This document shows, in pieces, positions 11,834-45,352 of a stretch of 46,970 nucleotides of DNA. The DNA is from an uncultured Alphaproteobacteria bacterium (lineage in GTDB: Bacteria; Pseudomonadota; Alphaproteobacteria; Rs-D84). Made by a program: the position numbers and the translations under genes. Under the pieces are notes generated by a model. The model worked only from the letters and a program-made list of their open reading frames with translations, ran no database searches and was not told where the DNA came from. How positions within the stretch are numbered: the first letter of the stretch is position 1; each line of letters opens with the position of its first letter. The stretch spans positions 1-46,970 of the forward strand of contig CALXMQ010000008.1 in the NCBI GenBank assembly GCA_944389515.1, given 5' to 3'.

Positions 11834-14368
11834 TTGACAATACGCATTGCGAATTTTTGTAAACCTTTGTTTGTTTTGGCGGCACTGGTGACCGCGGTTG
11901 ACGGTTTTGCCGCCCAGGCGGAAAACCCACGTGCGGCATCATCAAATGTTGTAAAGACATCATCTGCCACGGCGACATCACGTGGCGACAGCAATCGTGT
12001 TGTTCGTGTAAATTCTGGCGCATCAGAATCATCTGGACGTACCAGTGCGGCAAATGTAACACGCAGTGCAACAAATCGCACAACATCAACCGTATCACGT
12101 GCGGCGGCGTTTCAACAACCTGTACGCAGTGCAACGGTTACTGGGCGCAGCGGAACCATACGTCAAATGGCGCCGGTATCATCAACAGCATCGTCATCTG
12201 GGCGCAGTGCGACGGTATCGCGTGCGGCATCATCAAATGTTGTACGTGGTGCGACACATAATCCGGCCAGTACGGCACGTGCCGCATCTGCGAATTCTGT
12301 GGTTGGTGCGTCACGCGCATCAAATGCACGTGCGACTGCGGTATTTACAGATATTGATGCAATCGGTGGCGGATATGCCCAATGCCGCGAAGCGTACGCA
12401 ACATGCATGGATCAATTCTGTGCCAATGCAAACGACCAATATCGCAGATGTGTTTGCAGTGCACGTTATGATGAATTCAGAAATACAGAAAACGCCATTG
12501 ACGAAGCGTTAAATTTGCTGGCGCAATTCCAAGATAATAATTTAACCGCGGTCAATTTATCCGCCGAAGAAGTTACCGCCATGTACACCGCAACCGAAGG
12601 TGAAAATGCAATCAAGCGTGACACCAGTGCCGCGGCAGATATGCTGGCTGAAATCAATGATTTGTTATCTGGGAAAAGTTCAGCTTCTTCGTCCAGCACC
12701 AGCAGTACATCTTTGGGATTGTTGACGGTTGATTTCACATCTGATTTGGGTGATATTTGGGGCGATGGTGGAACATCTATATTTGATACATCAACCGGCG
12801 TTGATTTATCAACATTGGTTGGCGAAGATTTATACAGCGAAGCCAGCAAACAATGCATCGATTTAATCGCAGATTCTTGCGAAAACAATGCTGTTTTAAC
12901 AATGGCACGCAGTGCATACAGCATCATGATTACCCAGGATTGCAACCTATATGAAAAAAGCATAAATGCACAAAAAGAAAGTTTGGAACAAACGGTACGT
13001 ACGGCGGAAAAATACTTGCGCGAAGCACGTTTAGAAGAATATCAATCACACAATTCTGCTGATGTAAATGAATGTATTGCAAATGTTCGCACGGCAATCC
13101 AGGCAGATACAGCATGTGGTCCGAATTATCAACGCTGTTTGGATTATACGGGTGCATATATCAATCAAAGTACCGGCGAACCAATTTATTCACCACGGTT
13201 GTTTGAATTAGTCAATGTCATACAATTACCGGGCGTAAATTCTAGTGATGCCGGCGATGTTTTGGGTGCAAATGCAGAATTTAATAAATTTTTAGATGAC
13301 AAACGTATGTTCGCAGAAACAGCGTTGGATACATGTCGTGATATTTCTGATATTGTATGGGAAGAATTCAAACGCCAGGCATTGATTGAAATTGCCCAGG
13401 CACAAGATGAAAAGATAGAAGAAGTAAAAATGTCATGTGTCAGCACAATGGCCGAATGTTATGACACACAAACAGGTGCATTGCAAGATTTTGACAACAC
13501 AACATCACAATATACCGGTGCAATCAGTGCATATGCCGCACGTTCAATGTGTCAGGACAAAGTCATCGCCTGTGCGTCATTGTATGGAAATACGGAGGAC
13601 TGTCAGTTTGATGGAAATGGGCAATTAGTTGCAAACACCGGTAATAGCAGTGGCAGTTTAAGTGGTGCAGCAGCAAAAGATCGTTGTGGGTTGACAGCAT
13701 TACTGGATTTTGTTGATACGGTGGATACCGTTCGTGTTACCGAAGGTTGTGAAACAGCCATTGATAATTATTTGAAAGATTTGTGCACACCAGACAGTGG
13801 TGAAATGGGATATCCATGGAATTGCAGAAATCTGGAACCTGGGTCTACCGAAGAACCAGGCGAAGGTACATTATATAATTTGGTACAAACTTTTGCGCAA
13901 AATAATTGTGCAGATCCAACCAACCCCAACCCCACAGGGGATAATGCATCGAATCTTTTACCTGAAGTCCAAACTCAAATAACACGTGCGATTTCAGATG
14001 TTCAAGACGAATTGGACGATATGTTGATGAGTCAATGTGAAGAATTGGATGGGTATTGGATTGATAACGATAATTCCATCGACAATGTCGTAGACAGCCG
14101 AGTCCAAGGTCAAGGTACATTATTAGACGGATTTTATGCAGCGGTATATGGTGGAGACAAGGATACATCTTGGGGTCGTTGTGTTGAAAATACGACCATG
14201 CTGCGTTGTCTGGCGTATAATGATGATTTGGGCGATGGCGAAAAAGATGTTGCATCATATGATTCAACGCGTGACGAATGCACATTTACCAATGCTTGGT
14301 ATCAAAAACAATGCGAAGAATTGATGGGCGGATATTATGAAAATTCTGTATGCTATGTTGCGAATTAA
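11834..14368 (+). CDS. Large secreted cysteine-containing protein
   Basis: An 844-residue protein that appears to start at TTG (11834) behind AGAGAG at 11821. Residues 1-27 form a signal peptide ending around GFAAQA. Residues 30-165 are low complexity, rich in Ser, Ala, Thr and Arg with repeated SRAASSNVV-like units, suggesting a flexible linker through the envelope. The rest has spaced cysteines (for example CREAYATCMDQFCANANDQYRRCVC near residue 185) and acidic helical stretches with a coiled-coil look at about 385-400. No anchor, beta-barrel or sorting signal is evident. Function unknown; it shares its transcript and cysteine-rich style with the next gene and with the giant protein at 21763. 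Confidence 0.8.
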   Translation: MTIRIANFCKPLFVLAALVTAVDGFAAQAENPRAASSNVVKTSSATATSRGDSNRVVRVNSGASESSGRTSAANVTRSATNRTTSTVSRAAAFQQPVRSATVTGRSGTIRQMAPVSSTASSSGRSATVSRAASSNVVRGATHNPASTARAASANSVVGASRASNARATAVFTDIDAIGGGYAQCREAYATCMDQFCANANDQYRRCVCSARYDEFRNTENAIDEALNLLAQFQDNNLTAVNLSAEEVTAMYTATEGENAIKRDTSAAADMLAEINDLLSGKSSASSSSTSSTSLGLLTVDFTSDLGDIWGDGGTSIFDTSTGVDLSTLVGEDLYSEASKQCIDLIADSCENNAVLTMARSAYSIMITQDCNLYEKSINAQKESLEQTVRTAEKYLREARLEEYQSHNSADVNECIANVRTAIQADTACGPNYQRCLDYTGAYINQSTGEPIYSPRLFELVNVIQLPGVNSSDAGDVLGANAEFNKFLDDKRMFAETALDTCRDISDIVWEEFKRQALIEIAQAQDEKIEEVKMSCVSTMAECYDTQTGALQDFDNTTSQYTGAISAYAARSMCQDKVIACASLYGNTEDCQFDGNGQLVANTGNSSGSLSGAAAKDRCGLTALLDFVDTVDTVRVTEGCETAIDNYLKDLCTPDSGEMGYPWNCRNLEPGSTEEPGEGTLYNLVQTFAQNNCADPTNPNPTGDNASNLLPEVQTQITRAISDVQDELDDMLMSQCEELDGYWIDNDNSIDNVVDSRVQGQGTLLDGFYAAVYGGDKDTSWGRCVENTTMLRCLAYNDDLGDGEKDVASYDSTRDECTFTNAWYQKQCEELMGGYYENSVCYVAN

Positions 14369-21603: not shown

Positions 21604-21710
21604 TATATACATATTTATCTGATGCGATAACGTTTTTTATATTATTGTGTGATATAGTTCCAATTATCGATACAAATTATTATTTTTATTACATATTCTT
21701 ATTTTTTCTC

Positions 21711-21740
21711 TTGCACCATATGCATGATTTTTTCTAGAAT
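21711..21740 (+). promoter_or_regulatory. Promoter of the giant cysteine-rich protein
   Basis: TTGCAC (21711-21716), 18-bp spacer, TAGAAT (21735-21740); the AGAGAGG ribosome site follows at 21751. Confidence 0.5.
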
Positions 21741-21762
21741 AAAATATAAAAGAGAGGAAAGT

Positions 21763-24700
21763 ATGGGAAAAAGTCGCTGTTTTCTGGGTATTTTTGTATC
21801 TTTATTCATGGTATTTTTTGTGGGGTCTGCTGCATTTGCGGCCGGATATAATTGCCCGACGTATAAAAAATATACATCGTGCAGTGACGGGTATTATATG
21901 AATGGTGGCTTAGTCGCAGGTAACAGTTGCGTGCCTTGCAATTCTGTTTCTGCAACGGATTTATCCCAAAGCTGTACCAGAAACCCGACAAGTACAGAAT
22001 TATCAAATGCGCATGCCGCGGCTGGTACGATAACAAGCGCATCGCAAAAATGTACTGGTAATCATACTGGTGGTGCTGGTGGCACAGACACGGCCACAGC
22101 CTGTACCGGATGCAGTTCATGGGGCACTTGTACTGGGGGAACATTTACCGCAACATCTTGTTTAGAAGACTATTATCTGTCCAGTGGAAAATGTAATGCA
22201 TGTACCAGCGTCAGTGCCAGTGGCGATGTTGTCAGCACAACAACAATAACTGGGGGAAAACGCATACAAACATGTACTGGTAATCATACTGGTGGTGCTG
22301 GTGGTACAGGCACGGCCACAGCCTGTACAGGATGCAGTTCCAGCACTTATTCTTGCTCTTGTGATTCTGGGTATCATGTCGTCGGCAGTGGTGAAACATG
22401 TACATGCGCACCCGATAATATTTCTGTACAATGTGCGGCCGGCAAATATATTGCCAAGGGCAAAACCACATGCGACACACAATGTCCTGCGAACAGTTGG
22501 TGCGCCGGTGGTTCTTTCACAATTCCATATACTGGTGCAACGACAAATACTGGTATATCTGGGACTTGCGCCAACGAAACAACATCACCAGCAGGCAGTA
22601 ATTCTTACGAAGATTGTACAAAATCATGCACGGTTGCTTGTTCCGGCAATGATACCGCCAGTTGCCCTGCAAATGCAAACTGTACATACGATGAAACGAA
22701 AAAGTATACTGGTACACAGCACTGTACAAATACATCATGCAGTAATTTAAGTGCATGCAGTGCCAGTGGAACATGCCCGTTAAAGTCATTTAGCTGCAAG
22801 GCCGATTACTATCTAAAAAGCGGTGTATGTACTGGCTGTCCAACGAACTATCCAAACAGTGATGGTGGGGCAACGGCCATAACACAATGTTACAGCAATA
22901 CAAAACAACGTCCATGGACGGGTTCAGAAACACCGTGCAAAACCCCAACTGGATGCGCCAGTGCAAAATGTAAAACTTGCAGTCTGTCAGCCTGTAATTA
23001 TGTTGCGTATTCTAATGCAACTGGTACGGGGGATGGTGAACACAAATCTGGATGCACAACAAATAATGCGTCATGTCAGCAGGAAGTTGATACCGTAACA
23101 GCGGCCGACGATCATTATGTCAATTCAAAAACATGTCCTGCGTGTCCGGATACGTATCCGAATTCGGATGGTGGTAATATATCAGCTTCGTATTGCTATA
23201 AATGGGGAACCAAGACGGGCAGCCAACAAAATGGTGAAATACCGAAAAATTGCGCCAGTGTTACATCATGGAGTGCTTGTCAACCCGGGACATGCCAATA
23301 TAAAGATTACAACGGTGCAACCGATGGCACATGCACACCGTCTAATTGTGTCAAAGACCCGGCGGCGGTAACGGCAAAATCTGGATATTATGATGCAGGC
23401 ACCACATGTCCAGCATGCAGCACAGTTGGTGATGGTTCGTATAAATTATCCGCAGATGGTAACGAAGGCGGTAATACAAAATGTTACAAGGCATGTACAC
23501 GCGCCTGTACACAGCAAACATGTCCGGCAAATGCGACATGTACACACGGTTCACAAACGACCAGCGGCACACAGTATTATGGCGGTTCGTGCAGCGCGGC
23601 GGCATCAACATGTACAATAAAAATAACATGCAATTCAGGATACACATTGAAAGACAACGAATGTGTCGCAAATACATATACTGTGACATATAAAAATGGT
23701 GGTGGCACAGGTTCAGATAAAACGCAATCTGTGACGTATAATGCAAACTTTACAACAAAGCCAGCAAGCACATTTACACGTCCTGGATATACGTTCAGCA
23801 GTTGGGGTGGCAGTTATCCAAATCCAAACCAGTCGTATAAATATACAACTGTTGGGAATACAACACTGACTGCACAATGGGCTGCATGTGCCAACAATCC
23901 AACTGGTGAAAACACATGTGACTGTGGCGATGGCAAATATCCAAACGGTTCAGGCTGTTCGAACTGTGTTGTCAGTTGCAGTGGTGTTTCTGGATTTACA
24001 CTGGGACAATATAATGTTTGTGAATCCCAGACAAACAACATATGTTATCGTAATTGCACGATATCGGATGTTGCAAATTCAACCGCAGTAACAGGGACTG
24101 TGACCAAGGGCGGTACAAGGACATGTAAGCCCACAGCTTGTAAAACAGGTTATCAGGTGTCCGCTGATGGAACAAAATGCGAACTAAAAGAATACACAAT
24201 TACACTGAAGAAAAACGGTGGTACTGGTACAATCAATGGGTATACAGGTACAACAGATGCCAAAATCACATGTAAACACGGTGAAGTGTGCACACTGTCT
24301 GATGATGATGCGCTGACCCGTGGTACCAGTGGCGAATATACCTTTGTTGGTTGGGGTACAGAATCAACATGTACCAGTGGTACATTCCAAGAAACATTTA
24401 CTGGCAGTGCAACCAGATATGCGTGCTGGTCACAAAACACAACAAAATGTGAATCTGGTAAATATTACGATGGCACCAACCACGTCGCATGTCCAAAAGA
24501 CAGTTATTGCACAGGAACGGGGTCTGTAAACGTCGGTACACCTGGATGTATGTCAGAATGCCCGGGCACCAGCCAAACATCTGGTACTGGGAACAGCAGT
24601 ATTACGGCATGTTATATCACATGTTCTGGTGGTTCAATTACAAATGGTACACGTACCCCAGTGGAAGCAAATCCACATTATACCAGCACTGGGACAGCAC

Positions 24701-27700
24701 CAACATGTAAATACAACGCATCATGTAACCCAGGATACAAGCCTGTGAATCAAGGCACGGCAACTGCGGCATGTGAAATATGCGAAGCTGGCGAATACTG
24801 TCCTGGTGGTGGCGAAGGTCCGAAATCTTGTCCATCAGGTGGTACATCAGCAGCTGGTGCAGGCGCTATTACTGAATGCTATGCTGCATGCACAGGGGTT
24901 ATAACAGTGGAAAATTCAACATCTGTTAAATCTGATGGTAAAAAGTATTATAATGGCACGGAATATCCAGCATGTACATATGATGTAACCTGTGAATCAG
25001 ATTATAGCGTTCAAGATAATCATACTGCCGCGCCGTATTGTCAATATACTGGCGATTGTCCGCCGGGGTCTTGGTGTGATCCAGACGAAGATAACGGGCA
25101 ACCACAACCATGTCCAGAAGGCGGCACATCTGATGGTACAGCAACATCACCAGAACAATGCTTTGTATCATGCAATCGTGCAGGTGCGATAACGGGTGGT
25201 ACACTGACATCCAACGCCAGTGACACAGATGATCGTCAATACTGGAACGGTACTGAATATCCGGCATGTACATACCATGCAGATTGTGATGGTGGATATG
25301 TGGCGGATAACCAAGACACTGCGACCGCAACATGTATACCGTGCGACGGCGGTGATAAATGTCCGGGCGGTGATGACGAATATGATCCAGATCCATGTGA
25401 CGAAGATTGGTATTGCGAACCGGGCAAAGAACCAAAGCAATGTCCGGATAATGGCAAGTCTGAACAAGGGTCTGATTCAATCACAGATTGCTATCAGCCA
25501 TGTGCAGAATCCATTACAATATCTAATGGAACAACAACATCCACGGGCGATGCATATTACAAGATTGAATTATCTGGGTATCCGCAATGTACGTGGACGG
25601 CAAACTGTAACGAAGGGTACGAAGCACAAAACAGTCCAGGCACGAATCCGTCGTGCACATGGGCAGACCCAGACGCATGTCCAAAGAATCATTATTGCCC
25701 ACCAGAAACTGGGGAAAAAATACCGTGTCCAGATGACGAATATGGTAACCAAGGGTTCACTGAAACGACAGGTGCAACATCACCAACCCAGTGTTATCAC
25801 GACTATGATCCGTACAGTGGATTCAAATATGGTACGGCCGGGGCCAGATGCTTCTATCAGACTATATCATCTAAGTATGATAATTGCAGTGTGTCAGAAG
25901 TTCATACTTGCATCGGCGGATATTGGTATGACAGTGGTATGGAATGTTCACCAACATCCAGTGGTACATACAGTCCAGATGGCAATGTAAACAAAATAGA
26001 CTGTCCGAAAAACCCAACAGGTGGCAGTGTGGCATCGTCTGCCCAGGCGGATAGTTTCACACAATGCTATATGGCATGCGAACTGGATGTTGATAATGCC
26101 AGTACGGTTGCAGCAACAAATCCAAATGTATATGGTATCAGTGCAACAGAATACCAGGCGTGTGAATATACTGTGACATGTAATACTGGGTACACAGTTC
26201 AGAATAACAAGTCTGAAAACCCGACATGCCAGGCAAATAAATACACCATTACATTGGATAAAAATGGTGGTACTGGTAATACACCGGCAACAATCCAGTG
26301 TACTTTTGACAGTGGCGCATGCGAATTACCGGACACAGATGGGCTGACCCGTCCGGGATATACAGGCCAACGCAAGTGGTGCACAAACAAGGATGGAACT
26401 GGGACTTGTCATTATGCAGGTCAAAGCACAACCGCCAATATATCCAGTACTGGTACAAATATAACGTTGTATGCAGTATGGGTACCAAATGTGTACACTG
26501 TGAATTTGAATCACCAAGACGCAGATGTCGCAGGTGCACCAGCAACAGTGTATCTGAAATATGCAACTGGTTGGTTCAGCAACCAAGGTGCAACATCTGG
26601 TATTTCTAAACTGAGTACCGTTCCAACAAAAACTGGATATGAATTTGCAGGGTATTACAGCGCAATATCTGGTGGTGTTCCGGTAATCAATTCAACAGGT
26701 GTGTTCCAGGTGACAGAAAATGCGTTGACGTTCACAACAAATGAACCGGCAACAATATATGCCAGATGGTCAGCCGGTACAACGCACTGTGACGCAGGTA
26801 CATATTATACCGGCACAGGTACAACATGCGCACCATGCGAAGCCAATAATTACTGTCCGGGTGGCGATTTCGCAACCGACAGTGGCACCCCAGAAGGTAT
26901 GGAAAGCTGTCCAGAAAACGGGTTATCACCCAGCGAATCTGAATCAGCCACGGCATGTTACAAAACAGGTCTGGATTATACCGCAACACATGGGGCTGGG
27001 ACGCAAACGTGTAATTGGGATACAAGCGCCAGATCGTACAGTGCAAAATGCCAAAATATCAAAATTGATATGTGCGATGCAGGGTATTGGTTAGAAGATG
27101 CTGATAATGATACAGATTGTACAGCGGTCGGTATCGGTAATTACAGTGGCGATGAACAAATAACCCGTAACGCATGTCCAAACGGCGGAACCACAGATAC
27201 AGATACTGCATCGTCGGTTCAAGAGTGCTTTAAGACAGGTTTGGATTACAGCGCGACGCATGGTTCTGGTAAGCAAACTTGCTTCTATTCGTTCGGCGAA
27301 GGTGCAGATGCGGTATATCAACGCGACTGTCACACCCAGACAATAGAAAAATGTTGGGCTGGTTATTATCTGGCGGCGCCGGCTGATACAGATTGCACCC
27401 CAGTTGGTCAAACATATTACAGTGGTGAAGACGAACTGGAACGCCATCAGTGCCCTGCGAACAGTACCACAGGCGACGAAACAACTGCTGGTTCAATCAC
27501 GCGGTGCAGAAAAGATCGCCAGCCAGTTACCACAGAACATGGCGCAGGTGAACGTACATGCTTCTATACCGGTGGCGAAGGTGATGATGCGTACTTTACG
27601 ACAAATTGCCAGAAAATCACGATGACCAGTTGTCATGCGGGGTATTGGTATGATTATCAACAGGCCGCAGAAGACTGTGTCGCAGTTGGCATCGGATATT

Positions 27701-29118
27701 ACAGTGTCGTAAACGAAATGCAACGTCATATGTGTCCAGATAATGGAACAACGAAAACGACAACCAGTGCAACATCCGCTGAATGTTATCGCGACGATAT
27801 GGCGTGCGATATCGAAAATGGATTCGGTGAACAAACATGTAACTATAACGAAGCTGATGATGAATATACTTTGAATTGTCAGACATGTTATGTGACAAGC
27901 TGTGAATCTGGATTTTCACAAGTTGGTAATACATGTATCGAATGTCCCGAAGACAGCGTATGTGAAGGTGGCGAACAAAAAACGTGTGCGTCACTGACAG
28001 ATGGCCAGTATCCGAATTCAGATCCGGGTACAGAAGATGTGGCATTGTGCTATCGTGACTGTGCATTGGCAGAAAATGCCGCTGCAATGGACGGACGTGA
28101 TTATTATGACAGCACAGATACATGTGAAATTGCACGCTGTGCGGCCGGATACACATTGGATAACGGTCAATGTATCGAATGTCCCGAAGGCAGTTTCTGT
28201 GACGGTGAAACCGACCCAGAAAATCCGGGCGATGATGTGAAATCGTGTGCAGATGTTGGCGATGGCAGTTGGCCTTTGTCACAACCGGGTGCACAAGATG
28301 AACACGGATGTTATCAGACATGCGAAGCATATGAAATTATCAATGGTACCGCAGAACCGGTGTCAGACAAGGCGTTCTATCCAAATGAATGCGAATACGA
28401 AGGCGTATCTGATACGGGCAATCCATGTGAAATCATTGATGGTGAATGTGTCGAAACAATGTGTTTGGGCGGATACGAAATGATTGATGGGGTATGCGAA
28501 CCATGCGACCGTGAATATGCACTGTCATATAAAAATACAGGCGTATGTCAAATCGCACAATGCGTATTGGGATATCATCCAATCGGTGATCGTTGCGAAC
28601 CTAATGTCCAAGAGTGCGCTGCCCCGAACGCAGTATATGCAGAAAAGACATGGAACACAGCCACAGGTGCGTTTGGGTCTTGCATGATAAAAGAGTGCGA
28701 ATACGGTTACCATATCGCATCCAACGCATGTGTATCAGATATCCAACCGTGCAATGTTGAAAACGGAACTGGATTTAAAGAGTGGGACAGCGATATCAAT
28801 GATTGGGGCAAATGTGTTGCGACACAATGTAACCCAGGTTACACAAATGACCCATCAGAAACAAACGAGCTGACCAAGCAATGTGGTGAATGCAAGAACA
28901 AATATAGTGTTATGGGTAAATTGGCGGCCAGCAGTTATATCCAAGGTTGCGAAATCGCGTCCTGTATGTATCAAGGTGAATTGTACAATCTGGAAAATAA
29001 CGAGTGTGTACCAATTTGCCCGATGACAGAATACGAAGACGAAACCGGAACCATGGTGTGGGATGACGTTTCCAAGAAATGCGTCCGCACATGTAACGAA
29101 GGTTACACAATGTGGTAA
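21763..29118 (+). CDS. Giant secreted cysteine-rich protein with InlB-type repeats
   Basis: A 2451-residue protein. Residues 1-27 are a signal peptide ending AAFA; the start at 21763 is chosen for its AGAGAGG ribosome site. The mature part is built of dozens of short cysteine modules (CxxC, CPAC, CxxGY). Four InlB/Listeria-Bacteroides type repeats lie at about residues 639-707, 811-890, 1494-1574 and 1577-1670, each opening YTVT/YTIT-like and closing near a W. Four tandem repeats of about 90 residues lie at about 1735-2015. The C-terminus ends in further CxxGY modules with no transmembrane helix, LPxTG-like signal or recognised autotransporter domain, so release or non-covalent surface display is likely. 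InlB repeats in other bacteria occur in adhesins and surface proteins; an adhesin or coat role is inference. Confidence 0.85.
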   Translation: MGKSRCFLGIFVSLFMVFFVGSAAFAAGYNCPTYKKYTSCSDGYYMNGGLVAGNSCVPCNSVSATDLSQSCTRNPTSTELSNAHAAAGTITSASQKCTGNHTGGAGGTDTATACTGCSSWGTCTGGTFTATSCLEDYYLSSGKCNACTSVSASGDVVSTTTITGGKRIQTCTGNHTGGAGGTGTATACTGCSSSTYSCSCDSGYHVVGSGETCTCAPDNISVQCAAGKYIAKGKTTCDTQCPANSWCAGGSFTIPYTGATTNTGISGTCANETTSPAGSNSYEDCTKSCTVACSGNDTASCPANANCTYDETKKYTGTQHCTNTSCSNLSACSASGTCPLKSFSCKADYYLKSGVCTGCPTNYPNSDGGATAITQCYSNTKQRPWTGSETPCKTPTGCASAKCKTCSLSACNYVAYSNATGTGDGEHKSGCTTNNASCQQEVDTVTAADDHYVNSKTCPACPDTYPNSDGGNISASYCYKWGTKTGSQQNGEIPKNCASVTSWSACQPGTCQYKDYNGATDGTCTPSNCVKDPAAVTAKSGYYDAGTTCPACSTVGDGSYKLSADGNEGGNTKCYKACTRACTQQTCPANATCTHGSQTTSGTQYYGGSCSAAASTCTIKITCNSGYTLKDNECVANTYTVTYKNGGGTGSDKTQSVTYNANFTTKPASTFTRPGYTFSSWGGSYPNPNQSYKYTTVGNTTLTAQWAACANNPTGENTCDCGDGKYPNGSGCSNCVVSCSGVSGFTLGQYNVCESQTNNICYRNCTISDVANSTAVTGTVTKGGTRTCKPTACKTGYQVSADGTKCELKEYTITLKKNGGTGTINGYTGTTDAKITCKHGEVCTLSDDDALTRGTSGEYTFVGWGTESTCTSGTFQETFTGSATRYACWSQNTTKCESGKYYDGTNHVACPKDSYCTGTGSVNVGTPGCMSECPGTSQTSGTGNSSITACYITCSGGSITNGTRTPVEANPHYTSTGTAPTCKYNASCNPGYKPVNQGTATAACEICEAGEYCPGGGEGPKSCPSGGTSAAGAGAITECYAACTGVITVENSTSVKSDGKKYYNGTEYPACTYDVTCESDYSVQDNHTAAPYCQYTGDCPPGSWCDPDEDNGQPQPCPEGGTSDGTATSPEQCFVSCNRAGAITGGTLTSNASDTDDRQYWNGTEYPACTYHADCDGGYVADNQDTATATCIPCDGGDKCPGGDDEYDPDPCDEDWYCEPGKEPKQCPDNGKSEQGSDSITDCYQPCAESITISNGTTTSTGDAYYKIELSGYPQCTWTANCNEGYEAQNSPGTNPSCTWADPDACPKNHYCPPETGEKIPCPDDEYGNQGFTETTGATSPTQCYHDYDPYSGFKYGTAGARCFYQTISSKYDNCSVSEVHTCIGGYWYDSGMECSPTSSGTYSPDGNVNKIDCPKNPTGGSVASSAQADSFTQCYMACELDVDNASTVAATNPNVYGISATEYQACEYTVTCNTGYTVQNNKSENPTCQANKYTITLDKNGGTGNTPATIQCTFDSGACELPDTDGLTRPGYTGQRKWCTNKDGTGTCHYAGQSTTANISSTGTNITLYAVWVPNVYTVNLNHQDADVAGAPATVYLKYATGWFSNQGATSGISKLSTVPTKTGYEFAGYYSAISGGVPVINSTGVFQVTENALTFTTNEPATIYARWSAGTTHCDAGTYYTGTGTTCAPCEANNYCPGGDFATDSGTPEGMESCPENGLSPSESESATACYKTGLDYTATHGAGTQTCNWDTSARSYSAKCQNIKIDMCDAGYWLEDADNDTDCTAVGIGNYSGDEQITRNACPNGGTTDTDTASSVQECFKTGLDYSATHGSGKQTCFYSFGEGADAVYQRDCHTQTIEKCWAGYYLAAPADTDCTPVGQTYYSGEDELERHQCPANSTTGDETTAGSITRCRKDRQPVTTEHGAGERTCFYTGGEGDDAYFTTNCQKITMTSCHAGYWYDYQQAAEDCVAVGIGYYSVVNEMQRHMCPDNGTTKTTTSATSAECYRDDMACDIENGFGEQTCNYNEADDEYTLNCQTCYVTSCESGFSQVGNTCIECPEDSVCEGGEQKTCASLTDGQYPNSDPGTEDVALCYRDCALAENAAAMDGRDYYDSTDTCEIARCAAGYTLDNGQCIECPEGSFCDGETDPENPGDDVKSCADVGDGSWPLSQPGAQDEHGCYQTCEAYEIINGTAEPVSDKAFYPNECEYEGVSDTGNPCEIIDGECVETMCLGGYEMIDGVCEPCDREYALSYKNTGVCQIAQCVLGYHPIGDRCEPNVQECAAPNAVYAEKTWNTATGAFGSCMIKECEYGYHIASNACVSDIQPCNVENGTGFKEWDSDINDWGKCVATQCNPGYTNDPSETNELTKQCGECKNKYSVMGKLAASSYIQGCEIASCMYQGELYNLENNECVPICPMTEYEDETGTMVWDDVSKKCVRTCNEGYTMW
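22051..22118 (+). repeat. 68-bp direct repeat in the giant gene, copy 1
   Basis: Matches 22273-22340 at 65 of 68 bases, offset 222 bp (in frame). It encodes a glycine- and threonine-rich module ending CTGCSS, indicating recent internal duplication. Confidence 0.85.
22273..22340 (+). repeat. 68-bp direct repeat in the giant gene, copy 2
   Basis: Partner of the copy at 22051-22118, three mismatches. Confidence 0.85.
26969..28075 (+). repeat. Four tandem protein-level repeats of about 90 residues
   Basis: Units begin near 26969, 27239, 27521 and 27799. Shared features are T-x-HG-x-G-x-QTC, a CxAGYW segment, DTDCTAVG, YYSG and a C-P-x-NGTT block ending in ECYK. The DNA is well diverged, so the duplications are older than the 68-bp pair. 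Confidence 0.75.
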
Positions 29119-29199: not shown

Positions 29200-29218
29200 T
29201 ATTTACGACATATGCCCC

Positions 29219-29503
29219 CTATTCCAATGGGCATGCAGATGTGTATTCATAACTGCCTGTATCATCAGTGTATGTTACCCCAGCAGGCGCATACATTATG
29301 CATTGGCCACCTGGATTGGATATCAGGCACGATGTGGCTGAACCTGCATTGACATAGCCAGATGGGCAACTGGTGCCAATGATTGTATATTCTTGGTAAA
29401 TTGTTTTGTATCCGGCCGGACATGTTGTTGACGGTGCATCTGCATGTAATATTGTCGGACAAAACATGAATATTGCAATAACTGGTATAAAATAATTTTT
29501 CAT
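29219..29503 (-). CDS. Small secreted cysteine-containing protein
   Basis: A 94-residue protein with a signal peptide (about residues 1-22, ending LHA) and five cysteines in the predicted mature part, in motifs such as TTCPAGYK, TSCPSGYV and SACPLE. These echo the CPxGY modules of the giant protein. It follows the minus-strand gene at 29527 with a 23-base gap, so the two probably share a transcript. Function unknown. Confidence 0.7.
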   Translation of the reverse strand: MKNYFIPVIAIFMFCPTILHADAPSTTCPAGYKTIYQEYTIIGTSCPSGYVNAGSATSCLISNPGGQCIMYAPAGVTYTDDTGSYEYTSACPLE

Positions 29504-29526
29504 TTTGTATCCCTTTATAAAATTTT

Positions 29527-30027
29527 TTATTCCAATGAACTGAATAACTTGGTTTTGAACGTCAACGGATTATTCCCAGTCGAAGATGTTTTATACATGG
29601 TACGTGCACAAAAATATCCACACTTGGACGCGCAATCGTCGGCGGTCATTGAGGATATATCCATACATAAAGAATCTGTACACACCTCTGGACTGACCCA
29701 ATAAGTAGATATCGCAGGTTCAATCATTTTACACCAGCAATACTTGTTTCCGTTTGCCGCGCTGCGTGATAATGAAGTGCGCGTGTCGCCAACGCCGCTG
29801 GGGCGCAAACTGGAACATGCCGCAATGCCATTGATATTGGTGCCGCCACAACTGGCATACCAACCAATTTGATATTGATAATTGCTATATGAAGATGTAC
29901 ATGTTTGCGACGGATTTAATTTTACACATTTTACAACACTGGAATCGCCGCCAACAATCGCGCCGGCCGTACCAATACACAGCCATGCAATGCCAACAGA
30001 AATGCCAAATACAGATATTTTTTTCAT
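29527..30027 (-). CDS. Secreted cysteine-rich protein
   Basis: A 166-residue protein starting MKKISVFG with a signal peptide to about residue 23. The mature part has 12 or so cysteines (CGGTNINGIAAC, KYCWCKM, CASKCGYFC), suggesting disulfide cross-links. The start at 30027 is supported by GGGGG eight bases upstream. The reading frame stays open to 30195, but that stretch is full of paired repeats and a terminator-like hairpin, so it is treated as leader. Probably in one transcript with the 94-residue secreted protein. Function unknown. Confidence 0.75.
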   Translation of the reverse strand: MKKISVFGISVGIAWLCIGTAGAIVGGDSSVVKCVKLNPSQTCTSSYSNYQYQIGWYASCGGTNINGIAACSSLRPSGVGDTRTSLSRSAANGNKYCWCKMIEPAISTYWVSPEVCTDSLCMDISSMTADDCASKCGYFCARTMYKTSSTGNNPLTFKTKLFSSLE

Positions 30028-30044
30028 ATATGCCCCCAAGATTG

Positions 30045-30154
30045 CAAACCACCGTTTATTTTCGGCATTTTGGGCAAATAAAAAATCCCAGAAAACTGGG
30101 GTTTTTGAAACAAATAAAAACGCCACCATAAACGGTGGTTTGTTTTCGGCATTT
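30045..30154 (-). promoter_or_regulatory. Structured leader element with alternative pairing
   Basis: A 14-bp perfect inverted repeat (CAAACCACCGTTTA at 30045-30058, its complement at 30129-30142) encloses a 9-bp hairpin with T runs (30083-30104). Each arm is followed by the direct repeat TTTTCGGCATTT (30059-30070, 30143-30154). The upstream arm can also fold locally as CCACC/GGTGG (30123-30127, 30134-30138). So two exclusive structures are possible just upstream of the ribosome site of the gene at 30027, as in an attenuator. Confidence 0.5.
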
Positions 30155-30258
30155 ATTTCGTATTTTATGATATCAAAAGAACTGTGTTCCGTCAATATTA
30201 TTTTATTCGTACCAAAGAAAAATAGATTTTTATATCAACATAATATACAATCAATGTT

Positions 30259-36413: not shown

Positions 36414-37970
36414 TTATGCTTTAAACTGAGACGCTTTTCTAAATTTACCAATTTTATCTATAAATTTATGTATATCTAATGCGACAATATCAATACCATA
36501 TTTCATTTTTTGCCACTCTGTTGCCTCTACGGTGTCTGTATGAATTGTTGGGGCGACAAAAACAGCAAAAGCATCTTTTCTTTTTGCTTGCTTAATTTCC
36601 TTCAAATGCCTCCCGATCGGAATTATCTCATTATTTACCTGATCCGTGCGATTACACATCAATGACACCTCATAATAGCTGTCACAATCATCGTCATAGC
36701 ACTCTATATCGGCTACTCCACCAGACGCAGTAAATACAGGCAATCCTTCATCATCTACAGAATAATTTGGATTTACGTCCAAGCCTTCAAAATGTTGAAC
36801 TAATGCTACACTTGTTAAAAACTCTAATCTTGTCGGAGCATTTATATATCGTAGCACTTGATCTTTACTTTCCTTTTTACTACAAACGTTCAGCAATTCC
36901 TGAATTATAAAATCTTTTGAGTTGTCAGCTGCATATTTATATAAAGTATTCTTTCGAACATCTTTATAATCTACATGATTTTTATCTTCTATTTGTAGAA
37001 TTGTTTTGTCTATGGTACCCATGTAATCGATATAATCATTTTCACTATCAAATTTTGGGTATTCTGTATAATTTTGTGCAACGTAATCCGCAATAGCTTT
37101 TTCAAAAGTATTTATATCAAGGAATCGCCCATTGCCACGCAAAGACAACAAGCCGGACATTCTCATTTTCCTTATATACTCATCTACAGATTCATGACAT
37201 ATTTTATCCATTTTGAAATATGTACGGTTTGTACTCTCCAAAATTGATAAGCAATGTTCATATATAAATTCTTCTGAGCACATAAAACCACATTGTGCAC
37301 GAATTGCCTTGATATATTTATATGCTGCATATGCATTGTTATTTCGCCAACATATTAGTATTGGTAGTTCATGTCTAGCTAATCCAGCATTATTTTCTTC
37401 AGGGTCTTCGTGTAAATATTTTATCACATTCAATAATAGTGGTAATGGCGCATTTTCGTTCAACGTACGTCTTAACGGATTATTCGTCTGATATTTCATC
37501 AATGCATTCAAAAAGATAAGTTGTACTTTCTTTTCATTACTTGGTTCTTCTAAATAAGCATCAACTAACATATGCCCTGTCTGGGTTACTATGATCGGCT
37601 CCCCCATCGCATATTTTATAAAACCGAACTCTTTTATCATTTTATACCACGTGTCAAAACGAGAATCCCAACCATACTCAAATCCAGCCTCTTTATGTTT
37701 TTGCGGAGAATTTGTTATTATCCAGTCTAATTGCGCATCTGTAAAAACGGCATCATCATTTTCTGCGATCGCTCGCAATTCTGGTGTCCTCTGTATAATC
37801 ATTGGAGAATATTCTTTTTCTCTTATAAGACTTTTAACCACATTATATATAATACCAGAAGTTAAATTCTTGCCCTCATAAGGCAATATACAACGCAAAA
37901 AGTTCGGGATTCTCTCAGGATTCCTAATTGTTGTTGAGAAAGATAATGGTTTAGCTTTACTTATTGTCAT
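36414..37970 (-). CDS. AlwI-family type IIS restriction endonuclease
   Basis: A 518-residue enzyme. The opening SFSTTIRNPERIPNFLRCI and the catalytic segment DIECYDDDCDSYYEVSLM (Asp-421, Glu-434) followed by IIPIGRHLKEI match the AlwI/BstNBI/PleI/MlyI family, which cut outside short asymmetric sites such as GGATC or GAGTC. The exact site cannot be read from the sequence. The gene overlaps the upstream methylase by 14 bases, and a second methylase precedes that, so the host is protected on both strands. Codon use is far more A/T-rich than in flanking housekeeping genes, a sign of transfer. Confidence 0.85.
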   Translation of the reverse strand: MTISKAKPLSFSTTIRNPERIPNFLRCILPYEGKNLTSGIIYNVVKSLIREKEYSPMIIQRTPELRAIAENDDAVFTDAQLDWIITNSPQKHKEAGFEYGWDSRFDTWYKMIKEFGFIKYAMGEPIIVTQTGHMLVDAYLEEPSNEKKVQLIFLNALMKYQTNNPLRRTLNENAPLPLLLNVIKYLHEDPEENNAGLARHELPILICWRNNNAYAAYKYIKAIRAQCGFMCSEEFIYEHCLSILESTNRTYFKMDKICHESVDEYIRKMRMSGLLSLRGNGRFLDINTFEKAIADYVAQNYTEYPKFDSENDYIDYMGTIDKTILQIEDKNHVDYKDVRKNTLYKYAADNSKDFIIQELLNVCSKKESKDQVLRYINAPTRLEFLTSVALVQHFEGLDVNPNYSVDDEGLPVFTASGGVADIECYDDDCDSYYEVSLMCNRTDQVNNEIIPIGRHLKEIKQAKRKDAFAVFVAPTIHTDTVEATEWQKMKYGIDIVALDIHKFIDKIGKFRKASQFKA

Positions 37971-38868
37971 AGTTTGTTACAAATACCTCCCTAGAAGTTT
38001 CCTTGATAGTATTATCATTGAAACTTATATAGTTGCTGTTAATATTATAAACCAAATATTTTTTAGACCATTCTAAAAAAGTTGTATTTATTTTTCCTTT
38101 ATGGCTGACTAAATTCGTAATACCGAAGCTTATTCCTTTGCTATTCAGATAATCTAAATATTCGTATAGCCTATGTTCTTCTTTTGCGTTCCAATACTTA
38201 TTATATTCTGATCCGGATATTAAATATGGTGGATCAAAATATATATAACAGTGTTCGTTTAAATCTAATTTATCTAAAAAAGTCATAAAATCAAAGTTGT
38301 AGAATTCTATCTCATGTTTTTTTATAAAATCCATATAGTTGATGATAGCATCATGTACATTTTTATTAAAATCTACATTACCAACAGGAAGATTAAATTT
38401 ACCACAACTGTTAAACCTAATCATATGATTAAATCCATAAATTAACAAAAGGTAAAGGACTTCCACATCTTCTTTTTCGTTGAAGCTATCTCTCAACTTT
38501 TCATATGCGATTTTATTATACCTGGAATAATATGTTTTTACGAATTTTTTCTTAAGATCATCAGGAACTGCAATATTCTTATAAGAACATGACAACCCAT
38601 ATTCTTCGATTAACCTGTACAGTCTTTCTAGAAATTCATTAGGATTTTTAGAATACTTAGCCAGACATTTATGCAAAGCAATCACATAGGGATCTACATC
38701 ATTTACTATATATTTATTGGCTATAGTATTTAGAAAAGAACTTCCTCCACCGACAAAAGGCTCTATATAAATCTCTATTTTTTGTGGAAACAATTTCTTT
38801 AATTGTGGCATTAACTTATATTTGTCCCCAACATAAAAGAAAGGTGAACGAATTGTACTTTTTTTCAT
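37957..38868 (-). CDS. DNA adenine N6-methyltransferase, D12 class (Dam type)
   Basis: A 303-residue methylase. The lead RSPFFYVGDKYKLMPQL, SAM motif EPFVGGGSSF and catalytic DPPY in IYFDPPYLIS are in alpha-class order. In a type IIS system with an asymmetric site, two methylases each mark one strand; this one pairs with the upstream gene. The two overlap by four bases (ATGA), and this gene overlaps the endonuclease by 14, giving coupled translation with methylases first. Confidence 0.9.
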   Translation of the reverse strand: MKKSTIRSPFFYVGDKYKLMPQLKKLFPQKIEIYIEPFVGGGSSFLNTIANKYIVNDVDPYVIALHKCLAKYSKNPNEFLERLYRLIEEYGLSCSYKNIAVPDDLKKKFVKTYYSRYNKIAYEKLRDSFNEKEDVEVLYLLLIYGFNHMIRFNSCGKFNLPVGNVDFNKNVHDAIINYMDFIKKHEIEFYNFDFMTFLDKLDLNEHCYIYFDPPYLISGSEYNKYWNAKEEHRLYEYLDYLNSKGISFGITNLVSHKGKINTTFLEWSKKYLVYNINSNYISFNDNTIKETSREVFVTNYDNK

Positions 38869-39875
38869 ACTCCCACCTTTGTCAGGAATACCAGTTCCTT
38901 ATGTTGTGAAGCAGCTGTTTTGCCTGCATTGAATCTATGATATTCTTTTTCGAAAACTATTGTTTTTCCTCTTGTTTCTAATATCTGCTTTATTTGTTCC
39001 AGTGTTATCTTATTGCGAGAAGATGAACTTTTAGAATCATACGTGTTATTATAAGTTACAACAATATACTTCACATCCAAATTATTTATTAAATCTGCAA
39101 AAACATCAGGGGCGGAATTTCTACAGTAATTAGACATATTTTCTTCTGCAGGTTTCATAGCCGTTCCATGAAGTTTCGGTTTATCCCACTTAACAATAGT
39201 TTCCATAACATGATAAAACCTTGAATATTGACGGCTATTATATGGAGGATCAACAAATGCAATATCTGCAGTTACATGTCTAGCCAATTCATTTGAATCT
39301 TGCCTATATATTTGTACTTCATTCTTTGTTTGTATCGGTTCTATCAATTCGAACACAAAAGCCATACGAATTTTATTATCTTTGATAAAGGCCTCATAAT
39401 GACCGACAGTATTTGCACATTTATCAAACGAATAAAGCAATGACGCAAGCAATATATAATATTCTTTTTCCGTTAAATTGTGATTTTTATAGTCGTCTTC
39501 TATAGACTCACGAATATAACCTATCAGTTTAGCATCTTCGTATTTAAAGTATTTTCCACCATAATTTTCTGACACATAGTTATCTAGCAATGTTTTACGA
39601 TCGATATTTGAATATTTAATTACATATTGATTTAATTTTTTCTTGTCATACTTCGTTGCACCAAAAAACGCCTTATAAAAAACCTCGTTTGAGAATAAAA
39701 AGTCATTTATAATATTCTTTGTTGTCACATCTAATAACTCAGCAGTCACAACCCCTGTTCCCCCAAAAACATCAAATAAAACGTTATGTACAGAACAATG
39801 TCTTAGTATAATTTCCTTAATCCAAGGCATTAGCTTATATTTATTTCCGGTATAACGTCTATTTTGTATTTTCAT
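38865..39875 (-). CDS. DNA adenine N6-methyltransferase, D12 class
   Basis: A 336-residue methylase with NRRYTGNKYKLMPWI at the start, SAM motif FDVFGGTGVVTAELL and catalytic FVDPPYNSRQYSRFYHVMET. It is only distantly like the second methylase, as expected if each reads one strand of an asymmetric site. The start at 39875 is chosen because the family begins close to the RRYxGNK motif; in-frame starts at 39899 and 39944 exist. First gene of the restriction operon. Confidence 0.88.
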   Translation of the reverse strand: MKIQNRRYTGNKYKLMPWIKEIILRHCSVHNVLFDVFGGTGVVTAELLDVTTKNIINDFLFSNEVFYKAFFGATKYDKKKLNQYVIKYSNIDRKTLLDNYVSENYGGKYFKYEDAKLIGYIRESIEDDYKNHNLTEKEYYILLASLLYSFDKCANTVGHYEAFIKDNKIRMAFVFELIEPIQTKNEVQIYRQDSNELARHVTADIAFVDPPYNSRQYSRFYHVMETIVKWDKPKLHGTAMKPAEENMSNYCRNSAPDVFADLINNLDVKYIVVTYNNTYDSKSSSSRNKITLEQIKQILETRGKTIVFEKEYHRFNAGKTAASQHKELVFLTKVGV

Positions 39876-40399
39876 AAAGGACTCTATGTTTTCCCGCATT
39901 ATACTTAGAATCATAATACAAATCAAGACACTAGAGGCACTCATAAAAATATTTTTTAATAAATACGTATATAATGATTATTTACCAAAACTTTGGATAA
40001 AAACCCATAAAAATAGCATATAGCTAGTCTTGAAGCAGAAAACTGTTTTTACATACAACTAGCACAATTTTGAATCTATATACCAACTTGGCTTTCTATG
40101 CATTGCTATCATAAATTGCACAAGCATAAAAACTTCTATAGTTGTTTTTGAGATTTATAGTGTTTTTGTTTCTCAAGTTATACTATTTATAAATAAATCA
40201 AATCATATATTTAAAAAACGTAAAAAATATATTGTTAAGCCCTCAACACTATTGTTAAAGATTATTGTAGAGTATTTATATATAACTTTCAGCGCACCTA
40301 ACTTAAGTCAATATGTAAAAAATTTTTTGATAAAATATAAGTTGATAACCTTTTAGTTTTTATTATATACTGTGCTTGTAGTTTCAATGTAGCATTCCA
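39876..40399. other. AT-rich divergent control region between the two methylase units
   Basis: No gene seen. A promoter for the C5 methylase reads TTGATA (40342-40347), 18 bp, TATACT (40366-40371). The octamer ATTGTTAA occurs twice, 20 bases apart (40231-40238, 40251-40258), a possible operator. No controller (C-protein) gene is present. Confidence 0.5.
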
Positions 40400-41668
40400 A
40401 TGAAAATAACTTTTATAGATCTTTTTGCTGGTTGTGGGGGATTGTCCGAAGGTTTTATACAAGCAGGCTTTGATCCACTCGCCCACGTGGAAATGGATAA
40501 AGCTGCTTGTTTTTCTTTACGCACACGCATGGCATTTCATTGGCTTATTAGACACAAAAAAGCAAGTTTTTATACAGATTACCTAAGTGGAAAAATAACT
40601 AGAGATGAACTCTACTCAAAAATACCGAAACATATAATCAATTCTGTAATAAATGAAGAAATATCCGATAAAACAATTGAAAATATATTTACACAAATAG
40701 ATGCTATCCTTGAGAATAGGCAACTAGATTTAATCGTTGGAGGTCCCCCTTGTCAGGCATATTCGCTTATTGGACGTGGCTCAACCAAAAAGAATGGAGG
40801 TATGCAAGATGACAAACGCAATTGGCTGTTTAAATATTATATCGAATTTTTGATAAAATATAAGCCTAAATATTTTGTATTTGAAAATGTTCTTGGGCTG
40901 CTTTCGGCAAGAGATAAAAAAGGGAAAAAGTATTTTGATACAATTTTAAAGGAAATCAGTAAAAACGGATATTCTGCCGTAGCAGAAATTGTATCAGCAG
41001 ATTTATACGGCGTTCCACAGAACCGTAAAAGAGTTATAATTATAGGCACACGAGGCGACTTAACACCTATAAAATTACATTTATATCCTAAAAAATTATC
41101 TGCACGAATTTCTGATTTGTTTGCTGATTTACCAGAGATTCAAGCTGGTGATAAAACAAAAGATACTATAAAAGCAAAAAAAGGTTGCAAAGGGCTTTAT
41201 GATTTAAATTTAAAAGATGATTTTCCAATAACTTTGCACAAATCACGTCCACACAATGAACGCGATTTGGAAATCTATCGAATAGCTGTTGAAAAATGGA
41301 ACAATGGACATTTACGCCTGAATTATAATGATTTGCCTGCTAAACTTCAGACACATCGAAATAAAACAGCTTTCACAGACAGATTCAAAGTAGTTGCAGG
41401 CGATTTATTAGCTTCACATACAGTTGTTGCACATATATCAAAAGATGGACATTATTATATTCACCCAGACATAAAGCAAAACCGCTCTATAACACCAAGA
41501 GAAGCCGCACGTTTGCAAACATTTCCTGATAACTATTGTTTTGAATCTGCGGATGGCAAAGAATGTTTATCTAGTGCTTTCAAACAAATAGGGAATGCGG
41601 TGCCAGTATACCTTGCGAAACAAATTGCAGAAAGCATCAGAAAGGATATAAAAAAATCAGAAGATTAA
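40400..41668 (+). CDS. DNA (cytosine-5) methyltransferase
   Basis: A 422-residue enzyme with the ordered C5 motifs: FIDLFAGCGGLSEGF (I), VGGPPCQAYSLIGRG with the catalytic cysteine (IV), FVFENVLGLL (VI), the VPQNRKRVIIIG (VIII) block and QIGNAVPVYLAKQIAESI (X). About 75 residues between motifs I and IV and a target-recognition stretch near 225-330 are variable, so the site is not predictable. No ribosome site is visible. It is convergent with, and overlaps by four bases, the receiver/ATPase operon, suggesting one functional unit. Confidence 0.95.
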   Translation: MKITFIDLFAGCGGLSEGFIQAGFDPLAHVEMDKAACFSLRTRMAFHWLIRHKKASFYTDYLSGKITRDELYSKIPKHIINSVINEEISDKTIENIFTQIDAILENRQLDLIVGGPPCQAYSLIGRGSTKKNGGMQDDKRNWLFKYYIEFLIKYKPKYFVFENVLGLLSARDKKGKKYFDTILKEISKNGYSAVAEIVSADLYGVPQNRKRVIIIGTRGDLTPIKLHLYPKKLSARISDLFADLPEIQAGDKTKDTIKAKKGCKGLYDLNLKDDFPITLHKSRPHNERDLEIYRIAVEKWNNGHLRLNYNDLPAKLQTHRNKTAFTDRFKVVAGDLLASHTVVAHISKDGHYYIHPDIKQNRSITPREAARLQTFPDNYCFESADGKECLSSAFKQIGNAVPVYLAKQIAESIRKDIKKSED

Positions 41669-42963
41669 AAAGTACTCGTTCCGATGCGTGCATTATGAAA
41701 TAAGACCTTTTGACGTACATCATTTATGGACATTTCTCTTATTCTAAATAGATGAGAAGTATTTTTGGTAATATCTCTGGCAGAGATACCACTTAGATAC
41801 TTTGCATCTATAATAAGAGTATATTTATAGTCATCCAACGAAATTTCTTTACTGATAATAGACCCAGATGTCTTAATCTTTAGACCATCTACTTTAGGCA
41901 CTAAAAAGGAAAAGACGATTTTATGCAATCCTTCTTTTCCATTAGAAAAATCACACCCTGCAGTTATATCTATAACTCCGAATATTACTTTATTTATAAT
42001 GTTATCGATTTTTTGCTTTTGATCATCATTCTTATTACCTAAATACCCGTATAACAATTCCTGTTTTCGTAACTTTGCGCTTTTGAAAAACAAACCTATT
42101 TTATCTTTTAATGCAGGATTGTTTTGTAGAAAGAGTTTGATGAACTTTCGTGAATTTATTCTACGAAAATCCCCAGGGAAAACAAACCGTGAATTATTTT
42201 CAGACGTATCTATAATCAACATCGTATTTAATACGGGTTTTAAATCATCATTTATACTCATAGCCCCCTGAATAGCAGAACAAAATATTGTATTAGACGA
42301 TGAATTTGATAAAATTGTCTGATTACAAGTGTCAGCAAGTAAATAATGCAATTGCTCTATTATAATTTTTGGCTCACTTCCATGTATACGTTCTTCACTG
42401 ACACTAACTTGAGCTAATGAATTCAATATTGTTCCTATTGTTGTATCTTGATTATGCTTTGACAAGATATACAAATTATCCAATGTTTGTTCGGCTGCTT
42501 GGGCCACAAGGCGTTTCCAATAAAAAAGCGAATATATGTCTTTATCAATTTCTTGAATTTTAGAATTCAGTATATCTACAGTGAAAGTATTTTTATCCAA
42601 ACATAAAAATTGAATTGGTTGTTTTTGTTTTAATCCTTCATTATTTTCTAAATATGTCTTTAATGCTTCAAATTTAGTAGGATTACTTGTCCAAGCTATA
42701 AAAATATAAGCAGTGTCTTCTAGAACTAAATCATTTATAAAATCAGCAATTTGCCTATAATTTTGTTCATCATTAGCACCTGCAATTATCTTTATATCAG
42801 AACAAATTATTCTGGGAACAAATGGTAATTCCGAATATGCTGGAATCGCATTATTCGCATCTAAAATCAAAGGAACGCAACCTCCTTTTATAAACTCGTT
42901 GCGTAACTCTTCGACTTCTTCAAGGCTATCATCAATTATTATTACATTAGATAGATTTTTCAT
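41665..42963 (-). CDS. Receiver-domain protein with unknown C-terminal effector region
   Basis: A 432-residue protein. Residues 1-125 have the complete receiver (CheY-like) active site: acidic pair Asp-11/Asp-12 after the first strand, phospho-acceptor Asp-56 (RIICSDIKII), Thr-92/Ser-93 after strand four and Lys-124 (FLCLDKN). The remaining 300 residues are not a known DNA-binding output domain; a weak IIDAKYL segment recalls the end of some PD-(D/E)xK nucleases but is not enough for a call. The start lies five bases after the upstream ATPase gene, whose last codons carry its AAGGA ribosome site, so expression is coupled. Likely the response half of a two-component pair in a defence setting (inference). 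Confidence 0.75.
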   Translation of the reverse strand: MKNLSNVIIIDDSLEEVEELRNEFIKGGCVPLILDANNAIPAYSELPFVPRIICSDIKIIAGANDEQNYRQIADFINDLVLEDTAYIFIAWTSNPTKFEALKTYLENNEGLKQKQPIQFLCLDKNTFTVDILNSKIQEIDKDIYSLFYWKRLVAQAAEQTLDNLYILSKHNQDTTIGTILNSLAQVSVSEERIHGSEPKIIIEQLHYLLADTCNQTILSNSSSNTIFCSAIQGAMSINDDLKPVLNTMLIIDTSENNSRFVFPGDFRRINSRKFIKLFLQNNPALKDKIGLFFKSAKLRKQELLYGYLGNKNDDQKQKIDNIINKVIFGVIDITAGCDFSNGKEGLHKIVFSFLVPKVDGLKIKTSGSIISKEISLDDYKYTLIIDAKYLSGISARDITKNTSHLFRIREMSINDVRQKVLFHNARIGTSTF

Positions 42964-42968
42964 TTGTT

Positions 42969-45098: not shown

Positions 45099-45206
45099 AA
45101 TCGTATCCTTATTCAATAAATTGAGTTTACTATACTTATTTCATATTTTCAATAATCAACTTTATTTGAGCGAATATTCCTAAAAATTAAATATAACATT
45201 TCTGGC

Positions 45207-45248
45207 TACAATGATTATTGTCAATCCGCAACACAAAAAATCATTGTA
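45207..45248. repeat. Inverted repeat upstream of the ATPase gene
   Basis: TACAATGATT (45207-45216) and its exact complement (45239-45248), 22 bases apart. Position about 110 bases upstream of the ATPase start fits an operator or the island's right border. Confidence 0.5.
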
Positions 45249-45325
45249 TTGCAAAACTCTATAAAAATTATCTTATTTTATATAACGATGTCAACAGGTA
45301 GTAAAGCACACAATATTCCTATTAC

Positions 45326-45352
45326 TAACTTGACTTTAAGACAATAGTAAGC
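45326..45352 (+). repeat. Bipartite promoter-like repeat, copy 1
   Basis: TAACTTGACTTT, nine variable bases, GTAAGC. With TTGACT as -35 and 17 bp spacing, a weak -10 (GTAAAT) follows. Confidence 0.55.

Follow-up and report, generated by a model that had tools for sequence, protein, structure and literature searches.

The window (the whole stretch of 46,970 nucleotides analysed here) is contig C8 of a 0.947 Mb genome that is 98.6% complete. Published work on the order Rs-D84 portrays it as reduced and fermentative, with a probable dependence on partners (PMC12306168), and the organism is probably a partner-dependent, sub-megabase alphaproteobacterium of the gut. As judged by its predicted genes it is a diderm, with Omp85 found in 8/8 genomes and LpxC and LpxK in its own. 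On the plus strand, the frame at 21763-29118 is open, intact and stop-terminated, and encodes a cysteine-rich protein of 2451 amino acids, referred to below as the giant. Residues 1-26 (21763-21840) form a predicted Sec signal peptide with a 19-residue hydropathy maximum of 2.35, and this N-terminus is conserved in class A and in some class B proteins (see below). After the signal peptide, no 19-residue hydropathy window exceeds 1.6 in any of five orthologues, and none does so beyond residue 150 in 19/19 open frames of class A. With no Cys at +1, the giant does not qualify as a lipoprotein on this criterion. A promoter-like element, CTTGC-N13-TTTTTTCTAGAAT (also written CTTGC-N13-TTTTTTCTAnnAT), lies at 21710-21740 on the same strand and has an exact match in front of a class A giant in 8/8 genomes, the class A assignment in G142 and G171 being judged by coordinates. 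It is followed at 21748-21759 (plus strand) by AAAAGAGAGGAA, a presumed ribosome-binding leader that is conserved in most class A genes and occurs once in the window.

All features of the giant given below are on the plus strand. One InlB-type repeat, residues 639-705 (23677-23877), matches PF09479 at 5.9e-14 with 52.4 bits, above the gathering score of 27, and is assigned to that family. Three further stretches, with limits set by eye, cover residues ~811-891 (24193-24435), ~1494-1576 (26242-26490) and ~1577-1672 (26491-26778). The initial annotation, made from the sequence alone, had proposed four InlB-type repeats, and four PF09479 stretches are indeed recovered at a permissive cut-off, with E<=1e-3 passed by residues 639-705 only. 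It had also reported a tandem array of about 90 residues, which corresponds to four copies with a period of about 93 amino acids at residues 1716-2060 (26908-27942), colinear in five orthologues. Windowed alignment further identified an array of ~93-aa Cys-rich repeats at residues ~931-1316 (24553-25710) that is mostly absent in the orthologue L037. Near the N-terminus, residues ~66-197 (21958-22353) are an insertion absent from the four other full-length orthologues. It contains a 68-bp pair, at 22051-22118 and 22273-22340, of which 65/68 positions are identical, as initially annotated; in a second comparison the pair extends to 74 bp at 95%. The protein closes with a 200-aa domain (28516-29115) that ends ...GYTMW. 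Self-blast of the protein gave no off-diagonal pair, and its repeats were therefore assessed by windowed local alignment, in which 154/2926 window pairs outscored the best of 3000 shuffled pairs. This internal repetition is far beyond chance, and the initial description of a giant, modular, Cys-rich protein with a signal peptide is supported.

The giant contains 201 Cys residues. The initial annotation saw dozens of CxxC modules and drew from them a likeness to variable surface proteins of parasites. CxxC occurs 17 times, against 16.3 +- 3.9 expected from 500 shuffles of the same protein; it is not enriched and was ruled out as an organising motif, and the parasite likeness loses its basis. 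Giardia variant surface proteins are Cys-rich, carry an excess of CxxC, and have a variable N-terminal part and a C-terminal transmembrane anchor. The giant is likewise Cys-rich, with a variable N-terminal and a conserved C-terminal part, but differs in lacking both the CxxC enrichment and the C-terminal membrane segment. The number of Cys residues in the mature form is even in 5/5 orthologues and in 18/27 class A proteins (P 0.06, not significant); this parity is only suggestive. A DsbA family protein was found above cut-off in 8/8 genomes.

Relatives of the giant were detected in 19/23 other members of the genus and in 2/16 other members of the order searched. In many of these the giant lies directly upstream of an HI0933-like gene and/or an abhydrolase gene; in genome G003, a class B giant has this position. 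Four further full-length orthologues, L036 (2463 aa), L037 (1921 aa), L038 (2266 aa) and L039 (2300 aa), are also intact, and the comparison with them is one between species, with one genome per species. All five proteins are colinear from about residue 1350 onward. The C-terminal ~1000 residues are conserved and the N-terminal third is variable: in 150-residue blocks, identity is 22-74% and gapping 0-58% across the N-terminal 900 residues, against 69-86% identity with gaps of <=3% from residue 2101 onward, and over the final 51 residues identity is 76-86%. These alignments indicate that the N-terminal third is rebuilt between species while the tail stays fixed.

The initial annotation took the array to be still changing, and this is true of one part of the protein and not of another. 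The insertion at residues ~66-197, with its 68-bp pair, is found in the window protein alone among the five orthologues, and change there is therefore recent. In the 93-aa array, copies 2-3 share 53-58% identity with their counterparts in the four orthologues and 39-43% with neighbouring pairs. Since this pair is closer to its orthologous pair than to its neighbours, the array predates these species.

The last 200 residues of the giant are shared by 19 proteins with otherwise unlike bodies (alignment A1), with 37 invariant columns and a terminal G[YF]xxW in 19/19. These proteins are referred to as class A, and the window giant belongs with them, having the A1 domain, the invariant Cys residues and the terminal W. 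The A1 profile matches 109/201 genomes of the order at E<=1e-3, with a best E<=1e-30 in 95/201, and these strong matches all fall within one family, f1. In a sample of the class, A1 was found in 4/385 genomes, all of the window's genus and including the window's own. The protein had initially been called unusual for an alphaproteobacterium. It is not unusual in its own lineage, where relatives occur as counted above and the C-terminal domain is family-wide. In stretches chosen by hits, class A frames that have a start number 28 and encode 597 to 3768 aa. A second C-terminal domain, A2, marks the class B giants and is present in 160/201 genomes of the order at E<=1e-3, with up to 14 matches per genome and open frames of up to 6344 codons. 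Taken together, the sequences indicate a lineage-wide family of giant, modular, predicted exported proteins that is undescribed in searchable papers; no description of these giants was found in the open literature, PMC12306168 included.

The class B C-terminal domain, of ~120 aa, has the pattern GRVLNVGD.KIYLRS..KTTPSLNV...FYGNM...YSVYDDSM (e.g. L041, L045, L057 and L058) and is, from its sequence, a candidate sorting tag. Elsewhere in the window, at 11834-14368, an 844-aa Ser/Thr/Arg-rich exported protein is encoded, and its apparent relatives (L089, L090 and L091) carry, by eye, 1-5 A1-type Cys modules at the C-terminus.

Among curated families, Pfam, NCBIfam and PHROGs gave the InlB-type repeat only, and the PDB gave no match by sequence or, at E<=1, by profile. 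The GCC2/GCC3, TNFR and Eph-type profiles were likewise without a match, Pfam at E<=5 listing PF09479 only, though the HMMER filters may hide weak matches. A phage origin was rejected, as the whole protein was unmatched in 50,697 phage records, and a plasmid origin was rejected, as distant blastn of the C-terminal 1.6 kb gave no match in 72,556 plasmid records. No relative was found in viral contigs, either by protein or by alignment A1.

A model of two array copies, built from a 15-row alignment, had a mean pLDDT of 92.2 and a pTM of 0.72. The best Foldseek match was a weak one to Elapor1 (E 7.5e-3, prob 0.92), and the best VIA-align match was to the Chlamydomonas mastigoneme (Z 5.6, rmsd 5.8, 100 residues, 16% identity), although a Z under 8 may mean a common arrangement only, as the comparison tool itself warns. 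The mastigoneme protein is also a giant of extracellular filaments but is eukaryotic, and no sequence relation to the giant was found. Weak similarity was also seen between models of the giant and the metazoan Cys-rich rods of the Eph, TNFR and R-spondin type (Z 5.4 for EphB6; Z 3.3 for R-spondin Fu1-Fu2), families to which the giant has no Pfam match at E<=5. The likeness of the modelled array to Cys-rich rods would most likely represent a common arrangement of disulfide ladders, and the resemblance to Eph/TNFR-type rods is likely to be a similar solution, with descent not implied. The model of the C-terminal 418 residues was poor (mean pLDDT 52.2, five-row alignment) and its fold was not used as evidence, the best R-spondin-like Z there being only 3.3.

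The initial annotation recorded no anchor or secretion domain beyond the signal peptide. There is indeed no later hydrophobic segment, but the conserved ~200-aa C-terminal domain was overlooked. Invariance between strains, together with a C-terminal anchor in a predicted structure, had been named as what would refute the initial reading. No such refutation arises, as species differ in the way described above and the model of the C-terminus is of too low quality either to reveal an anchor or to exclude one. No Pfam domain of a type V autotransporter barrel was found at this C-terminus, and the terminal G[YF]xxW (19/19) presumably does not fit the end signature of such a barrel. Giant adhesins of Gram-negative bacteria are large, repetitive and adhesive. 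The giant resembles them (autotransporters, RTX/type I) in its size, repetition and presumed adhesive role, but has no autotransporter or RTX domain in Pfam. It also resembles surface proteins with InlB B-repeats (Listeria-Bacteroides repeats; PF09479, TIGR02543), having an export signal, a modular build and four such stretches; in the giant, however, the repeats are a small share of the 2451 residues and the remainder matches no curated family.

No dedicated exporter is linked to the giant. Type I secretion was considered and, as far as the two TolC loci of the genome go, rejected, as these adjoin an HlyD-type adaptor and an AcrB-type pump, respectively. An ABC ATPase lies about 6 kb from the HlyD-type adaptor, and an HlyB-type exporter was not seen at these two loci. 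Two-partner secretion was rejected because Omp85 is matched only once in each of 8/8 genomes. Secretin and T2SSE matches are present in 8/8 genomes. In the window's own genome, a PilN-type secretin is located beside a TcpQ protein and, at a separate place, PilO, a GspE-like ATPase and a T2SSF protein are encoded in a row; these type-IVb-pilus-like genes occupy L147:7325-12005 and L144:10474-13121. Type-IVb-pilus and type-II machines pass folded, disulfide-bonded proteins, and for this reason the type-IVb-pilus/type-II-like system is the best candidate for export. Such a secretin machine would suit a folded, oxidised protein, though nothing ties it to the giant. No sequence signature is known to define the substrates of these machines.

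Our preferred interpretation, to which we assign a probability of about 0.5, is that the giant is an exported, disulfide-braced surface stalk that most likely acts as an adhesin, attaching the bacterium to a partner cell or to a surface in the gut. The conserved sigma70-type promoter would drive its expression and the Sec signal peptide would direct it to the periplasm. There, DsbA would oxidise the ~200 cysteines, and the ladder-like Cys-rich modules would assemble into a long, stiff rod. The rod would then cross the outer membrane, with the type-IVb-pilus/type-II-like secretin machine as the best candidate route. The fixed C-terminal domain may serve as the base, as a cap or as an export tag, with the N-terminal third possibly forming the exposed tip, rebuilt by insertion, loss and replacement of modules, an orientation suggested by the pattern of conservation. 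The combination of a signal peptide without another membrane segment, 201 Cys residues, DsbA and a secretin argues for a predicted stalk, and the constant tail, the variable N-terminal third and the rod-like array model are consistent with it, as are the outer membrane, the sharing of the class A tail among proteins with otherwise unlike bodies and the purifying selection described below. The partner-dependent lifestyle proposed for the order (PMC12306168) was also counted in its favour; on partner contact, that study speaks only of hypothetical membrane-bound proteins. Against an adhesive stalk, no curated family backs adhesion, the InlB-type repeat occurs in many contexts, the model-based structural matches are weak (Foldseek E 7.5e-3 and Z 5.6 at best), no anchor was found, and the surface location is a prediction. 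Rs-D84 cells are thought to live off partners, and the giants would be family-wide candidates for the part that does the touching. Should they prove to be docking stalks, the identity of the partner could be pursued through one defined protein, and the tail domains would be new sorting or anchoring modules.

Of the other explanations, the one that survives best, though we consider it unlikely, is that the giant is a periplasmic or outer-membrane-associated structural protein, crosslinked by disulfides, that stiffens the cell and is not an adhesin. The chlamydial cysteine-rich outer membrane proteins are the model for such envelope armour. The very high Cys content of the giant, the presence of DsbA in 8/8 genomes and the lack of a linked dedicated exporter are all compatible with armour, as is a 982-aa open frame in the same genome, in which a weaker A1-type Cys module stands beside an OmpA domain (peptidoglycan-binding type) and a CarboxypepD_reg domain. 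Since the Cys module also occurs in this OmpA-domain protein, some of these modules may have a periplasmic role, which counts against the surface stalk as well. A variable N-terminal part with species-specific insertions is, however, unlike a structural lattice, and the class A tail is strong in only 95/201 genomes of the order.

Less likely than armour is a soluble factor, freed into the gut content to act as a decoy or capture protein for ligands or glycans of the host or of microbes. The signal peptide, with neither a transmembrane segment nor a lipobox, would permit release, and one array weakly resembles receptor ectodomains, e.g. those of Eph and TNFR. Small disulfide ladders typically show such a resemblance, however; Pfam, NCBIfam and PHROGs gave neither an enzymatic domain nor a toxin domain, and conservation of the 200-aa C-terminus suggests that the protein is bound to a partner on the cell.

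More doubtful again is an antigenically varying coat, in which modules shuffled between the two classes of giants in one genome would alter what is exposed, under pressure from immunity, phages or partners. N-terminal blocks are replaced between species, and class A and class B genes have stretches in common. Within G022 (L048/L058) these reach up to 737 bases at 66-83% DNA identity, and within the window's own genome the identity is 71-75%. The class B gene of the latter is repetitive and runs, within repeated sequence, into the ends of two contigs, C1 and C11. The common stretches are, however, old (<=83% identity), so that no recent gene conversion between the classes is seen, and no short tandem array of the phase-variable type was found in the gene.

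The dN/dS ratio was 0.10-0.31 in 8/16 comparisons, the N-terminal third included, and the other 8 were saturated at synonymous sites; purifying selection is thus indicated by the sequences where dS is unsaturated. A mostly neutral expansion, in which repeat-prone DNA grows and shrinks and the variable part has little function, would account for the several-fold differences in giant length across species with genomes of about 1 Mb or less, but is very improbable given that 5/5 full-length orthologues are intact, the promoter element and tail are conserved, and dN/dS is <0.35 wherever computable (8/16 comparisons being saturated).

A surface stalk of the preferred kind may share its regulation with VirB genes. 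When a looser pattern of the promoter-like element was searched in the 8 whole genomes, the 14 exact matches comprised the 8 in front of class A giants, 5 in front of VirB8-like genes and 1 elsewhere, against 1 match for a reversed-pattern control. In G043, the VirB8 site is present with one mismatch. With 2 mismatches allowed, the element is also found at other genes, and the backward control matches too. In the window's own genome, VirB8 (PF04335, 7.6e-10) is followed by VirB9 (CagX, 8.6e-22) and VirB10 (TrbI, 2e-16), and VirB11 is encoded elsewhere (TIGR02788, 2.3e-44, below the curated cut-off). The shared promoter-like element is a lead towards co-regulation of the giant with the virB8-10 operon. 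The element itself differs little from the sigma70 consensus of alphaproteobacteria, given for Sinorhizobium as CTTGAC-N17-CTATAT (PMC2873474), and the likeness between the two sites may therefore mean just two strong promoters. A wider and more speculative proposal, which we rate below any of the alternatives above other than neutral expansion, is that the giant and the VirB apparatus form one contact programme. The stalk would grip the partner and the co-expressed VirB8-VirB11 would act on it; the class A and class B giants would be a variable docking coat, and the two C-terminal domains outer-surface sorting tags of a new kind.

The VirB8-VirB9-VirB10 operon is located at L163:6000-10888 (G000:C6) and the VirB11 ATPase at L148:1191-2186 (G000:C7). 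At 832 aa, the VirB10-like protein is long, and it includes a choice-of-anchor-D-like stretch. A second promoter-like variant, CTTGCAAC...TTTTTCRTAAAAT, was observed at G000:C1:196236, G043:C1:146067, G134:C2:229998, G137:C4:114848, G142:C2:22705 and G171:C5:67071, and precedes class B giants in two cases read directly (L040 and L173) and in two more as judged by coordinates.

Two small secreted proteins that contain Cys are encoded on the minus strand immediately downstream of the giant, at 29214-29505 and 29527-30195; for the 222-aa protein downstream of the giant, no tblastn match (E<=1e-10) was found in the relatives' fetched loci. Further along the window, 36414-46968 is a low-GC island with core genes of 28-34% GC. 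It encodes a Type II restriction enzyme (PADLOC PDLC03507, 8e-179) and three methyltransferases, of which two are Type II and the third has DrmMII as its best match. A 715-aa protein of the island matches REase_II weakly, and at the window end there is what appears by eye to be a serine-recombinase-like gene.
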